Below the pieces are notes generated by a model, which saw only the letters and a list, made by a program, of their open reading frames with translations, searched no databases and was not told where the DNA came from. Made by a program: the position numbers and the translations under genes. Of a stretch of DNA of 64,000 nt, positions 54,786-61,563 are shown in pieces. Origin of the DNA: Gemmatimonadaceae bacterium. GTDB lineage: Bacteria > Gemmatimonadota > Gemmatimonadetes > Gemmatimonadales > Gemmatimonadaceae. Within the stretch, counting starts at the first letter, position 1; every line of letters starts with the position of its first letter. The DNA is taken from NCBI GenBank assembly GCA_025929535.1, contig JAICLZ010000001.1, positions 1 through 64,000 of the forward strand, written 5' to 3'.

Positions 54786-55274
54786 CTAATGCGCGATGCT
54801 TTCTCCCACGCGTGCGTTTGCCGCCGAACTCGCCTCCGCGCAGCCCGCGCCGCAGTAGCGCGGCGGCGTGCCCGCGGGGCGCGCACATCGATGCGACTCC
54901 ACACATTCGACGGCCGGCACCCCCGAGCGAGAGAGCACGACGGCCGCGAGCTGCTCGCTCACGCCGAATGCCGCCGTCACCTGCACCGGAATTCCCGGAT
55001 GAGCGGCCGCGATCTCCGCCACCATGCGAGGGATGTCGCGCGTGGAATGTTTGCCCGGGGAGAGCATGTACGGAAAGACCACGATCTCCGTCGCGCCGGC
55101 AGCGATGCACGCATCGAATCCGTCCGCGATCGTGGGGGCGGCGAGCTCCATGTGGGCGACGCGCACGAGGACGCGCTCGCCCGCCATGCGCTGCACGAGC
55201 TCGCCCACGCATTCGAGCATGTGATTCGCCTCTTCTTTCACCGAGCCGTGATCGATGATCAGGATTCCCTTCAC
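54786..55274 (-). CDS. CbiX/SirB-like sirohydrochlorin chelatase (single domain) with Cys-rich tail
   Basis: A 162-residue chelatase of the class II family. Active-site His in LIIDHGS and a second conserved His in PGKHSTRDIP, with the intervening FPYMLSPG loop. Such enzymes insert Co2+ or Fe2+ into sirohydrochlorin for cobalamin or siroheme. The C-terminus is a Cys-rich tail (VECVESHRCARP...YCGAGC), four Cys in about 30 residues, reminiscent of the metal/FeS tails of some CbiX proteins. GTG 55274 is preceded by GAGGAG. It lies 53 bp after the bhmT-metF gene, which fits a cobalamin link. A TATATT box lies in that gap. Confidence 0.8.
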   Translation of the reverse strand: MKGILIIDHGSVKEEANHMLECVGELVQRMAGERVLVRVAHMELAAPTIADGFDACIAAGATEIVVFPYMLSPGKHSTRDIPRMVAEIAAAHPGIPVQVTAAFGVSEQLAAVVLSRSGVPAVECVESHRCARPAGTPPRYCGAGCAEASSAANARVGESIAH

Positions 55275-55327
55275 GTGTGCTCCTCGCTGGACCGGTCCCC
55301 CAATATACCGTGGCTTTCCGCCGCCGC

Positions 55328-57238
55328 TCAGCTCTCGAGCACCCGCACCGCGAGCTCGACCTTGCCGAATGGCGCGGACACCTGCGCGCCCTGCACGGCG
55401 CCGCGCACGCGCTCGAGCATCTCGCGGGCGATCGCGATCCCTTCGGCCACTGCATGCTCCTTCGAGCTTTCGCTCGCCGCCCGCATGCGTGCGAGCACCG
55501 ATTCCGGCACCACCACTCCGGGCACCTCGTTGGCCAGAAACTCGGCGTTTCGCGCGGACACGAGCGGCCAGATCCCCGCGACAATCGGAATGCGCACGTG
55601 CGCGATCGACTCGAGAAAGCGCTCGAGCTGCTCGACATCGAACACGGGCTGCGTGATCGCGTACTCCGCGCCGGCGTCCACCTTCCACTCGAATCGCCGC
55701 AGCTCGTATGCCGGATCGAGCGCCGCGGGATTCACGCCCACACCGACCGTGAACGCCGTCGGCCGGCCGATCGCGTTGCCGCCGGGGTCGAGGCCCTTGT
55801 TCAAGCGGCTCACGAGATTCGTGAGGCCGATCGAATCGATGTCGAACACCGCGGTGGCATCGGGGTAGGGCCCCATCTTCGGCGGATCACCCGTGATGAT
55901 GAGGAGATTCCGCAGCCCCATCGCGGAGGCGCCGAGCAGGTCGCTCAGCATGCCGAGAAGATTCCGGTCGCGGCAACAGTAGTGCGTCACCGTCTCCATC
56001 CCGATGCGCTGCTCGATGAGGAGACTCGTCATGAGCGCACCCATGCGACTCTGCGCGCGCGGTCCATCGGGAACGTTCACCGCGTCCACGCCGGCCACCT
56101 TGAGCGCGGAGACGCCCTCCAGCATCGCGGTCGCATCGACGCCGCGGGGCGGCACGATCTCCACCGACGTGACGAACTCGTTGCGCGCGATCTTTCCCGC
56201 CCAGCGTGAGCGCCGCGCGAACGGCATCGCCTCCACGCCTGTCGCGCTCGCGGGCTCCGCGCCCGGCTCGTCGGCGCCGAGCGTGTGCGGCATCTGGTAG
56301 CGCACGCTCGGGCGCCGCTGGTTGCGCGGCACGAGCGGTCGAATGCCGTCCACGAGCGACTTGATGTGATCGGGCGTCGTTCCGCAACAGCCGCCGATCA
56401 GCTTTGCGCCCGCCTGGATGAAGTGGCGCGCGTAGCTCGCCATGTACTCGGGGCTCGCCATGTACATCGTGCGTCCCGAAACGTCGCGAGGCATGCCGGC
56501 GTTCGGCTGCGCGCTCAGCTTCCGCTTCGTGACCGCGGCCATCCGCTCGATGGCTTCGAGAATCGCCTGCGGTCCCACCGAGCAGTTGAGCCCAATGACG
56601 TCCGCGCCCCACTCGTCGAGTGTGCGCGCGACGTCTTCCGGCGTCGCCCCGAACGGCGTGAGCCCGTCCTGTCCGATCGTCATCTGCGCGATCACCGGCG
56701 TCCCCAGCGAGAGCTCGCGCGCGGCCGCGAGCGCCTGCTCGATCTCGCCGAGGTCGCTGAAGGTCTCGAGCAGAAAGCAGTCCGCGCCGCCTTCGAGCAG
56801 CGCGTGCATCTGCTCGCGGAAATGTCCGCGCGCCTCCTCGCGGCTCGTGGCGCCGAACGGCTCGATGCGAACGCCGAGTGGCCCAACGGCACCCGCCACG
56901 AGCACGTTCGCGCCCGCCGCCTCGCGCGCGATCTCCGCCGCACGGCGATTGAACTCGGCCACGTGATTCTCGAGTCCGTACTGCGCGAGCTTGAGCCTGT
57001 TCGCGCCGAAGCTGTTCGTCTCGAGCAGCTCGGCGCCCGCCTTCACGTACGCGCGATGCACATCGAGCACGAGCTCGGGGGAGCGCACGTTGAGCTCATC
57101 GTAGCATTGGTTGATGAACACGCCGCGCGAGTAGAGCATCGTGCCCATCGCTCCATCCGCCACCATGATGCGCTCCGGATCCACGATCCCGCGCACATCG
57201 GGACGCGCCTGTGCGCGATTGTCCGCCACGGTGCTCAT
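55328..57238 (-). CDS. Bifunctional homocysteine S-methyltransferase / methylenetetrahydrofolate reductase
   Basis: A 636-residue two-domain enzyme. Domain 1 (about 20-310): zinc-dependent homocysteine methyltransferase with VADGAMGTMLYSRG, Cys ligands in GLNCSVGP and GGCCGTTPDH. Domain 2 (about 345-636): FAD-dependent MetF-type reductase with TSVEIVPPRGVDATA, HYCCRDRN, LLIITGDPPKMG and AITQPVFDVEQLERFL. This fusion occurs in several bacterial lineages. It starts by overlapping the metH stop (ATGA), so it is made in the same transcript as MetH and would supply its 5-methyl-THF. It keeps its own methyltransferase domain although MetH is intact. Confidence 0.93.
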   Translation of the reverse strand: MSTVADNRAQARPDVRGIVDPERIMVADGAMGTMLYSRGVFINQCYDELNVRSPELVLDVHRAYVKAGAELLETNSFGANRLKLAQYGLENHVAEFNRRAAEIAREAAGANVLVAGAVGPLGVRIEPFGATSREEARGHFREQMHALLEGGADCFLLETFSDLGEIEQALAAARELSLGTPVIAQMTIGQDGLTPFGATPEDVARTLDEWGADVIGLNCSVGPQAILEAIERMAAVTKRKLSAQPNAGMPRDVSGRTMYMASPEYMASYARHFIQAGAKLIGGCCGTTPDHIKSLVDGIRPLVPRNQRRPSVRYQMPHTLGADEPGAEPASATGVEAMPFARRSRWAGKIARNEFVTSVEIVPPRGVDATAMLEGVSALKVAGVDAVNVPDGPRAQSRMGALMTSLLIEQRIGMETVTHYCCRDRNLLGMLSDLLGASAMGLRNLLIITGDPPKMGPYPDATAVFDIDSIGLTNLVSRLNKGLDPGGNAIGRPTAFTVGVGVNPAALDPAYELRRFEWKVDAGAEYAITQPVFDVEQLERFLESIAHVRIPIVAGIWPLVSARNAEFLANEVPGVVVPESVLARMRAASESSKEHAVAEGIAIAREMLERVRGAVQGAQVSAPFGKVELAVRVLES

Positions 57239-60200: not shown

Positions 60201-60762
60201 GCCGCTCGATGCCCGCGATCGCCGCCTTTACCTCGAGGATGTCCTGCGAGGTCTCGATGAGTAGAACATCTACACCTCCCTCGACCAGCCCTTTCGCCTG
60301 GCTGTAATAGTTCTCGGCGAGCTCCGCAAAGGTGATGGCGGAGAGGGTCGCGTCGGCGCTCGACGGGAGCATGCCCGTGGGCCCCATCGATCCGGCGACG
60401 AAGCGCGGTCGTTCGGGACTGGCAAACTTGTCGCATGCGGCGCGCGCGAGCCGAGCCGCGCCAACGTTGATCGCGTCGACCTTGTCGCCCAGCCCCCATT
60501 CGGTGAGTCGTCGCGGCGTGCTCTGAAAGGTGCACGTCTCGACGACGTCACAGCCAACGGCGAGGAACGACTCGTGAATCGACTGGATGATGTCGGGGCG
60601 CGTGAGCACCAGGTGGTCGTTGCACCCTTCGAGCGACGGTCCGCCAAAGTCGGCGGCCGAGAGTCCGGCGCGCTGAATGTTCGTCCCCATGGCGCCGTCG
60701 TAGATGAGCACGCGGCGATCGAGGGCATCCAGGTACGCGGAGGGAAAGCGGGGTTGTGGCAT
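57235..60762 (-). CDS. metH: Cobalamin-dependent methionine synthase
   Basis: A complete 1175-residue MetH, all four modules: homocysteine-binding domain (YDGAMGTNIQRAGL, GLNCSTGPEHM, GGCCGTTPEHL), pterin-binding domain (LLIGERVNAQGSRKVKRLLL, MIDSTELDVVKAAL), cobalamin-binding domain with VYGDVHDIGKSLVNTIL (DxHxxG ligand) and LSALLVSTSKQMP, and the SAM-dependent activation domain (WGYPACPDLEGHAQLFKLL, LTSAFQLMPEQSTAAIVVHHPQAKYY). Makes methionine from homocysteine. ATG 60762 is the start, directly at the conserved domain. A SAM-II-like aptamer and terminator precede it. It overlaps bhmT-metF downstream. Confidence 0.97.
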   Translation of the reverse strand: MPQPRFPSAYLDALDRRVLIYDGAMGTNIQRAGLSAADFGGPSLEGCNDHLVLTRPDIIQSIHESFLAVGCDVVETCTFQSTPRRLTEWGLGDKVDAINVGAARLARAACDKFASPERPRFVAGSMGPTGMLPSSADATLSAITFAELAENYYSQAKGLVEGGVDVLLIETSQDILEVKAAIAGIERLFAELGRRIALQAQVTLDTSGRMLLGTDIASAMTTLESLGVDVIGLNCSTGPEHMREPIRYLGEHARLPISCIPNAGLPLNTGVGEAVYPLAPAPMAAALAEFVRDFGVRIVGGCCGTTPEHLSAIVAAVSAVGASDGRTDGKATHVPRVSSAMRAITLHQDPPPLLIGERVNAQGSRKVKRLLLAEDYEGIVQVAREQVDAGAHVLDVCVAVTERADEAVQMAEVVKLLSMSVESPIMIDSTELDVVKAALEHIPGRAIVNSINMENGRTRIDSVVPVVKANGAAVVALTIDEVGMAKTAARKLEIARRIHEIATKEYGLAPEDIIFDALTFTLATGEAEWLDSAHETIEGIKLIKRELPGVFTSLGVSNVSFGLDQHARAVLNSVFLHHCVTAGLDMAIVNPAHVTPYAEIPKEERALADDMVFNRRPDSLQRFIEHFAARGPNAASDAASGAADATAMEPDERVRWHVLFRKKDGIESALDAAGVRESPVRVLNEVLLPAMKEVGDRFGAGDLILPFVLQSAEVMKKAVAHLEKFLERKEGYTKGKVVLATVYGDVHDIGKSLVNTILSNNGYTVFDLGKQVPVNTIIDKAVEVGATAIGLSALLVSTSKQMPICVQELDRRGLYFPVLIGGAAINRRFGRRAMFVENERPYAPGVFYCKDAFEGLDTMESLIDEEKRGPMLLELVESARKDVFLRTAVGKDISHGDSAGVRSAVAADNPLPKPPFWGAQVRREIPLGEVLDLLDIDELFRLQWGGRGSGAAWEKAVREEFRPTLERLSESAAREGWLTPQAVYGYFPVQSSGNDLIVYDPAAMQSDGGSMRELTRFSFPRQEGREHLCLADYFRSVESGDVDVAAFQIVTVGDEATRRFAELQEKGEFSEAYYLHGIGVEAAEATAEWVHQMIRRELGIPGSQGKRYSWGYPACPDLEGHAQLFKLLPASDALGIELTSAFQLMPEQSTAAIVVHHPQAKYYAVRGAAAEPEAA
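59777..59793. repeat. Tetranucleotide CCGT repeat within metH
   Basis: Four tandem CCGT units (17 nt with the partial unit) encode the linker DGRTDGKA between the homocysteine-binding and pterin-binding domains. A 4-nt change would frameshift metH, so it is a slippage-prone point in principle; nothing shows that it varies. Confidence 0.5.
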
Positions 60763-60807
60763 ATCGTTGGCTCGAGACGCCGCCGGAGCAGTGCGACGCG
60801 CAAAAGC

Positions 60808-60834
60808 AAAAAATGCCCAGTGCACGCGCGGGCA
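60808..60834 (-). terminator. Intrinsic terminator in the metH leader
   Basis: On the minus strand TGCCC ... GGGCA forms a 5-bp GC-rich stem around an 11-nt inner stretch and is followed by six Ts (60808-60813). The same bases can form an alternative hairpin CAGTGC/GCACTG (60818-60837). It lies after the aptamer and before the metH start, so it can act as a regulated transcription stop. Confidence 0.7.
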
Positions 60835-60842
60835 CTGAGCCG

Positions 60843-60894
60843 GCGCTTTAGCGGAATGTTTTACGTGGCCGCAATTTGCCGTAAATCGCCACGA
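60843..60894 (-). promoter_or_regulatory. SAM-II-like riboswitch aptamer upstream of metH
   Basis: On the minus strand the leader reads, in order, P1 strand GTGGC, the conserved GATTTA, a short loop, TTGC, the P1 closing strand GCCAC, then GTAAAACATT and GCTAAAGC. SAM-II aptamers share exactly this order: P1, GAUUUA, UUGC, P1', an A-rich GUxAxAAA segment and GCUAAA, forming an H-type pseudoknot. It sits about 80 nt upstream of metH, the first gene of the methionine operon. I infer repression by SAM. It would need a covariance-model search to confirm, and SAM-V shares the core. Confidence 0.75.
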
Positions 60895-60969
60895 TTCAAT
60901 TGATCTGCAAGGTAGCGGAGAGCCCCGGGCGCTTCAAGCGCAGTGCCGCTCGCGCGGCCGATGCGGCAC

Positions 60970-61563
60970 TCAGCCGAAGATGGAGCGCATGGCCGCGATC
61001 TCGACGATGTAGATGAGAACGTAGGCGACGAGTGGTGAGAAATCGATCATGCCGAAGGACGGCAGGGCGCGAGCGATCGGCTTGACGATCCAGTCGGTGA
61101 GCGTGTGCGACAGGCGTGCCCACCAGGAGTAGCGCATCCCGATCCACGAGACGATCACGCGCACGATCAGGGCGAGCTTGAGCAGCTCGAACACCCATTG
61201 CAGCAGGAGCGCCGCGATTCCCGTTCCGCCCTGGGTGGCCGCGAACGAAAAGGAGAGCGCGGTCGCGCGAACCCACTGGAGAAGCACGATCAGCATCACC
61301 CCGATCACGACGACGGCGGCCAGTCCCCACCACGGAGCCTGGGTGGGCACCCCGCCCGCGCGCACCACGCGCGCCTCGATCGGCGCGAGCACCGGATCGA
61401 TCACTCGCCGGCAAAATCGCGCAACGGCGGAAAACGGATTGATCTGCCGCGTGCGAACGGCCCAATCCACCACCGCGATCGCGAGAAACACGGCGCCGAG
61501 CACGAGCAGCGCGATGCGCAGCACGGAGATGGCGGAGTCGATGATCGGCATGAGGGTGTTCAC
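60970..61563 (-). CDS. YggT-family membrane protein
   Basis: A 197-residue protein with two YggT (YGGT/DUF2) repeats, each with the RxxxPF.. or R.vxD. pattern: INPFSAVARFCRRVIDPVLAPIEARV in the first, and VRVIVSWIGMRYSWWARLSHTLTDWIVKPIARALPSFGMIDFSPLVAYVLI in the second. Four hydrophobic helices in all. YggT proteins are inner-membrane proteins linked to osmotic stress and cell-shape/division in some bacteria; the role here is unknown. It begins 7 bp after the prolyl oligopeptidase stop, so it is co-transcribed with it. Confidence 0.9.
   Translation of the reverse strand: MNTLMPIIDSAISVLRIALLVLGAVFLAIAVVDWAVRTRQINPFSAVARFCRRVIDPVLAPIEARVVRAGGVPTQAPWWGLAAVVVIGVMLIVLLQWVRATALSFSFAATQGGTGIAALLLQWVFELLKLALIVRVIVSWIGMRYSWWARLSHTLTDWIVKPIARALPSFGMIDFSPLVAYVLIYIVEIAAMRSIFG

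Follow-up and report, generated by a model that had tools for sequence, protein, structure and literature searches.

A predicted SAM-II riboswitch with an adjoining terminator upstream of metH in Gemmatimonadota

The window analyzed here is the whole 64,000-nucleotide stretch of contig JAICLZ010000001.1 from a Gemmatimonadaceae bacterium, and its minus strand carries a methionine operon with a structured leader (table 1). The operon begins with metH, which encodes a cobalamin-dependent methionine synthase and is followed by a bifunctional bhmT-metF gene; both names come from NCBIfam models that were matched above cut-off. The stop codon of metH and the start codon of bhmT-metF overlap as ATGA (57238-57235), the coupling that had been noted when this locus was first described. 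The third open frame contains a putative CbiX-like chelatase, and the true start of this gene probably lies inside the frame given. The nearest MetH proteins, at 92% and 91%, come from one Gemmatimonadetes and one Gemmatimonadaceae metagenome assembly. A 16S identification gave nothing, since the assembly contains no rRNA that we could find. Ahead of metH lie a candidate promoter, an aptamer consisting of a P1 hairpin and a P2 pseudoknot, and an intrinsic terminator. The metH ATG is at 60762, about 80 nt beyond the end of the aptamer, which is the distance originally predicted.

Table 1. Features of the metH operon and its leader in the window.
Feature	Positions	Strand	Basis or detail
Candidate sigma-70 promoter	60909..60937	-	TTGAAG (60937-60932), 17-nt spacer, TACCTT (60914-60909)
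Rfam RF00521 aptamer span	60828..60902	-	covariance model
P1 hairpin	60864..60893	-	CGTGGC (60893-60888) with GCCACG (60869-60864)
GATTTA	60887-60882	-	direct reading
CGGCAAA	60881-60875	-	direct reading; then TTGC, G, P1 3' strand
TAAAACATTCC	60863-60853	-	direct reading
GCTAAAGC	60852-60845	-	direct reading
P2 pseudoknot	60841..60881	-	strands of P2a and of P2b are complementary
P2a	60881-60878 and 60844-60841	-	CGGC with GCCG
P2b	60874-60871 and 60852-60849	-	TTGC with GCTA; includes the U-U of the SAM site
Candidate antiterminator hairpin	60826..60846	-	-11.8 kcal/mol; GCGC (60846-60843) with GCGC (60829-60826), GGC (60841-60839) with GCC (60833-60831)
Intrinsic terminator	60808..60840	-	9-bp stem, 60840-60832 with 60823-60815; six Ts 60813-60808
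metH, cobalamin-dependent methionine synthase, 1175 aa	57235..60762	-	TIGR02082, 1110 bits (cut-off 1011)
bhmT-metF, bifunctional homocysteine S-methyltransferase/methylenetetrahydrofolate reductase	55328..57238	-	NF006396, 748 bits (cut-off 453)
Open frame containing putative CbiX-like chelatase	54786..55688	-	ORF list

When the 64-kb window was scanned with 4227 Rfam families (cmscan), the sole match at gathering level was SAM_alpha (RF00521, SAM-II) on the minus strand at 60902-60828, with 39.9 bits, a modest margin over the gathering cut-off of 36, and E=1.6e-5. The E-value falls to 7.5e-8 when the scan is limited to the 301 bases of 60700-61000, and over the same bases the models for SAM-V (RF01826), SAM-SAH and other riboswitches gave no match at E<=10. 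The comparison of SAM-II and SAM-V models in Infernal, proposed together with the original prediction, therefore agrees with SAM-II, and an identity with SAM-V was dropped. Direct reading of the minus strand recovers all of the SAM-II elements that had been described, in the order described, and they are spaced as the SAM-II model requires. GATTTA, CGGCAAA and TTGC are contained in the loop of the P1 hairpin, and the conserved SAM-II core GATTT / TTGC / AAA / GCTAAA is exact both by direct reading and in the model alignment. The interval first assigned to the element, 60843-60894, covers the aptamer and misses the last P2a bases, at 60842 and 60841, as well as the terminator, which had gone unmentioned. 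Plain folding of the aptamer, a method that is blind to the pseudoknot, gave a stability no greater than that of shuffles. Judged by its sequence, the metH leader element is a genuine and ordinary SAM-II riboswitch that is well conserved and for which SAM binding is predicted.

Four species of the genus share one identical block from P1 through the T-tract, terminator loop included, and both flanks of this block have strongly diverged. We gathered 152 distinct leaders by motif with a search pattern that required most of the conserved core, so that the invariance of the core and of P2b among them does not constitute independent evidence. In a 40-sequence alignment 91.7% of the cells are paired, compared with 19-57% when the structure is slid, and the covariation score is higher than in all 500 shuffles, with double changes at only one pair, which is in P2a. 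The second P2a pair occurs in relatives as G-C, C-G, A-U and G-U. P1 is paired in 100% of the 40 relatives, yet it is nearly invariant; its covariation thus cannot test the structure, and the P2a pair is the informative one. Covariation of P1 was accordingly abandoned as a structural test. Of the compensatory changes that had been anticipated in the leaders of relatives, those in the pseudoknot were found, in P2a, and those in P1 were not.

SAM-II was detected in 262 of 395 Gemmatimonadota genomes, 221 of them above the curated cut-off, and in none of the 14 control genomes. It is present in all 5 genomes of the genus and lies above gathering at 10 of the 15 named metH loci that were scanned. 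A metH cluster is found downstream of 95 of the 149 leaders that have a readable downstream frame, followed by metF (11), a class I aminotransferase (6), panB and O-acetylhomoserine sulfhydrylase (5 each), threonine synthase (4), metX-like genes and homoserine dehydrogenase (3 each), and a RimK-like ATP-grasp gene (2), proportions that are not a census because the leaders were drawn from the best-scoring matches and from a metH-based search. Some of the targets seen only once are probably wrong reading frames. The genes downstream belong overwhelmingly to methionine and one-carbon metabolism. By these matches, SAM-II is widespread in Gemmatimonadota, with metH as its main predicted target.

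SAM-II was listed from proteobacteria and Bacteroidetes by Corbino et al. 2005 (PMC1273637) and by Barrick and Breaker 2007 (PMC2258182), and among proteobacteria SAM_alpha was reported only in Rhizobiales and Rhodobacterales, with metY as the core target (Leyn et al. 2014, PMC4239095). The Gemmatimonadaceae host lies outside these groups, as the original prediction had allowed for in suggesting an extension of the SAM-II range. Among the papers covered by our literature search, which included few subscription journals, none names SAM-II together with Gemmatimonadetes or Gemmatimonadota; other papers or the Rfam species lists may mention it. The metH leader belongs to a known family, of which we found no earlier report from this phylum. 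The element is common throughout this phylum, and any Rfam scan would detect a SAM-II of this kind. These matches extend a classic riboswitch class across the greater part of a large soil phylum, where its main target is shifted to metH.

The terminator begins at the base that adjoins P2a (60840, next to 60841). Strict terminators were found in 83 of the 152 leaders of the phylum set, compared with 6.2 in dinucleotide shuffles, and in 2 of 149 upstream control stretches. The candidate promoter matches the consensus at 7 of 12 positions and is weak alone; its TTG and TAn-TT are conserved within the genus, and across the phylum promoter-like sites with at least 9 of 12 matches occur at this place in 40 of 149 leaders, compared with 3 in shuffles.

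The candidate antiterminator hairpin occupies the 3' strand of P2a together with the 5' arm and the loop of the terminator. In folding, the stretch 60846-60808 prefers the antiterminator (-16.2 kcal/mol) and, once the P2a strand is left out, forms the terminator (-15.6 kcal/mol), the two energies being close. Compared with shuffled loops, the terminator loops of metH leaders pair more strongly with the GCTAAA strand, the gap and the 5' arm (mean -1.85, se 0.31 kcal/mol; p<=0.1 in 19 of 56). Over all leaders the mean is -1.04 kcal/mol, and only 54% lie below the shuffle mean. A test in which partners were swapped between leaders was marginal for the P2a part of L1 (199 of 10000 permutations) and for the 3' strand (400 of 10000) and was not significant for all of L1; with swap tests this marginal, a general antiterminator across leaders was not retained. 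In equilibrium folding of the whole leader, the terminator forms at 0.94 both with the aptamer constrained to its bound form and with it unconstrained. This yields no switch in the window, and the same model gave small gains in other leaders, exceeding 0.2 in 10 of 84 metH leaders. An equilibrium switch was consequently rejected for the window, and any switch would have to be kinetic. The hairpin energies fit a kinetic antiterminator that would be removed once SAM locks P2a. Based on these models, an antiterminator at 60846-60826 is plausible, and we infer that the terminator could be read through without SAM.

We propose that this SAM-II element is, very probably, an OFF switch acting on transcription of the metH / bhmT-metF operon, perhaps including the cbiX-like gene. 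Transcription would start a few nucleotides ahead of P1. Abundant SAM would bind the P1/P2 pseudoknot and lock both strands of P2a, upon which the adjoining terminator would form and RNA polymerase would halt ahead of metH. At low SAM, the 3' strand of P2a would be free, and its pairing with the terminator's loop and upper 5' arm (60846-60826) would let the polymerase read through. Binding of SAM, the site where transcription starts, the antiterminator and the regulatory direction are all inferred; the OFF direction is assigned because of the SAM-II precedent and the position of the terminator, and the presence of that terminator suggests transcriptional rather than translational control. Repression of the metH operon by an H-type SAM-II pseudoknot, which the original prediction had put forward, is supported by the covariance model match, the covariation in P2a of the pseudoknot, the methionine genes that consistently lie downstream, and the terminator next to the aptamer.

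The leader shares with the alphaproteobacterial SAM-II (metA motif, RF00521) the covariance match, the P1 and P2 pseudoknot, the conserved core, a promoter (here a candidate) just before P1, a terminator between P2 and the gene, and methionine genes downstream. It differs in the phylum of its host, here Gemmatimonadota, and in its target, which is mainly metH, whereas the core target of proteobacterial SAM-II is metY and metH is not listed (PMC4239095). SAM-V (RF01826) likewise has an H-type pseudoknot and a nearly superimposable SAM site (PMC6061858), but its model finds no match here at E<=10, and SAM-V acts translationally with a short P2a. In the metZ and metA leaders of Sinorhizobium meliloti, SAM-II is also followed by an intrinsic terminator (PMC9373788), although the genes and the phylum are others. 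The metZ leader is predicted to terminate upon SAM binding, and for metA the reported effects of SAM concern the stability of the RNA, the activity of the promoter, or translation (PMC9373788). The metA terminator lies between two start codons, whereas the terminator described here lies before the only likely ATG.

The S. meliloti metA leader is the model for an unlikely reading of the window, in which a SAM-II aptamer is accompanied by a constitutive terminator that sets a low basal level and releases a short leader RNA, with SAM acting at the other levels named above for metA. The metA terminator has no predictable riboswitch-driven antiterminator (PMC9373788), and the indifference of the terminator in the window to the bound-state constraint fits this reading as well. 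However, the terminator abuts P2a directly, its loop shows no variation within the genus, and in metH leaders this loop has a tendency to pair with the strand of the aptamer. Furthermore, with the ATG 80 nt downstream the pseudoknot would leave the ribosome-binding site uncovered.

An altered ligand preference, for example for SAH or a precursor in place of SAM, is very improbable. Proteobacterial methionine synthase genes are also under SAH-responsive systems (PMC4239095), but the known SAM-II family rejects SAH (PMC1273637), and GATTT, TTGC, AAA and GCTAAA are exact in the window and in the collected leaders, although most of these motifs were themselves part of the search pattern. We give still less credence to a chance resemblance or a decayed, functionless element. 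The modest margin of the score and the lack of covariation in P1 speak for it, yet the E-value in the 64-kb window, the genus-wide identity between diverged flanks, the methionine genes downstream across the phylum, and the distribution of SAM-II in phylum and genus all contradict it. A broader proposal, toward which we are somewhat more doubtful than inclined, is that SAM-II has become the main metH regulator in Gemmatimonadota through a pseudoknot strand that, in the absence of SAM, pairs with the loop of the terminator, and that one lineage splits the methionine pathway between the two classes in one cell, with metH under SAM-II and a metX-like and a Cys/Met-metabolism gene under SAM-I.

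At least six related metH leaders (L008, L009, L012, L015, L017 and L125) have no terminator, and their ATG lies 8 nt past GCTAAA, next to P2a. These are apparently translational SAM-II switches, unlike the terminator type of the window, and the phylum has transcriptional and probably also translational SAM-II platforms. The many natural leader variants, with terminator or start-codon platforms, are useful for studying SAM-II termination control.

Several further leaders deserve mention for their targets. The genome of the window has a second SAM-II (C42:8516-8586; 36.6 bits) with a terminator and with AATTTG instead of GATTTG, which precedes a class I aminotransferase-like gene; a GTG-initiated frame crosses the terminator. 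In several Gemmatimonadaceae (L003, L023, L026, L030 and L122), SAM-II and a terminator precede panB (ketopantoate hydroxymethyltransferase, TIGR00222), an unexpected SAM-II target that lies outside methionine synthesis; L003 has a second SAM-II in the opposite orientation before a RimK-like ATP-grasp gene. At L202:2-1399 (-) a SAM-II aptamer lies upstream of a gene for a TonB-dependent receptor plug-domain protein, which may serve in uptake and be controlled by SAM.

In 2007, SAM-I and SAM-II were not known to occur together in any species (PMC2258182). At least 15 Gemmatimonadota genomes carry both SAM-II and a SAM-I above its cut-off, and contamination is unlikely because 12 of these are species of one genus. 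In one coexistence genome (G072; loci L224, L225 and L151), SAM-II precedes metH, and SAM-I is found ahead of both a metX-like gene and a gene resembling Cys/Met PLP enzymes; a further SAM-I is oriented away from the first.
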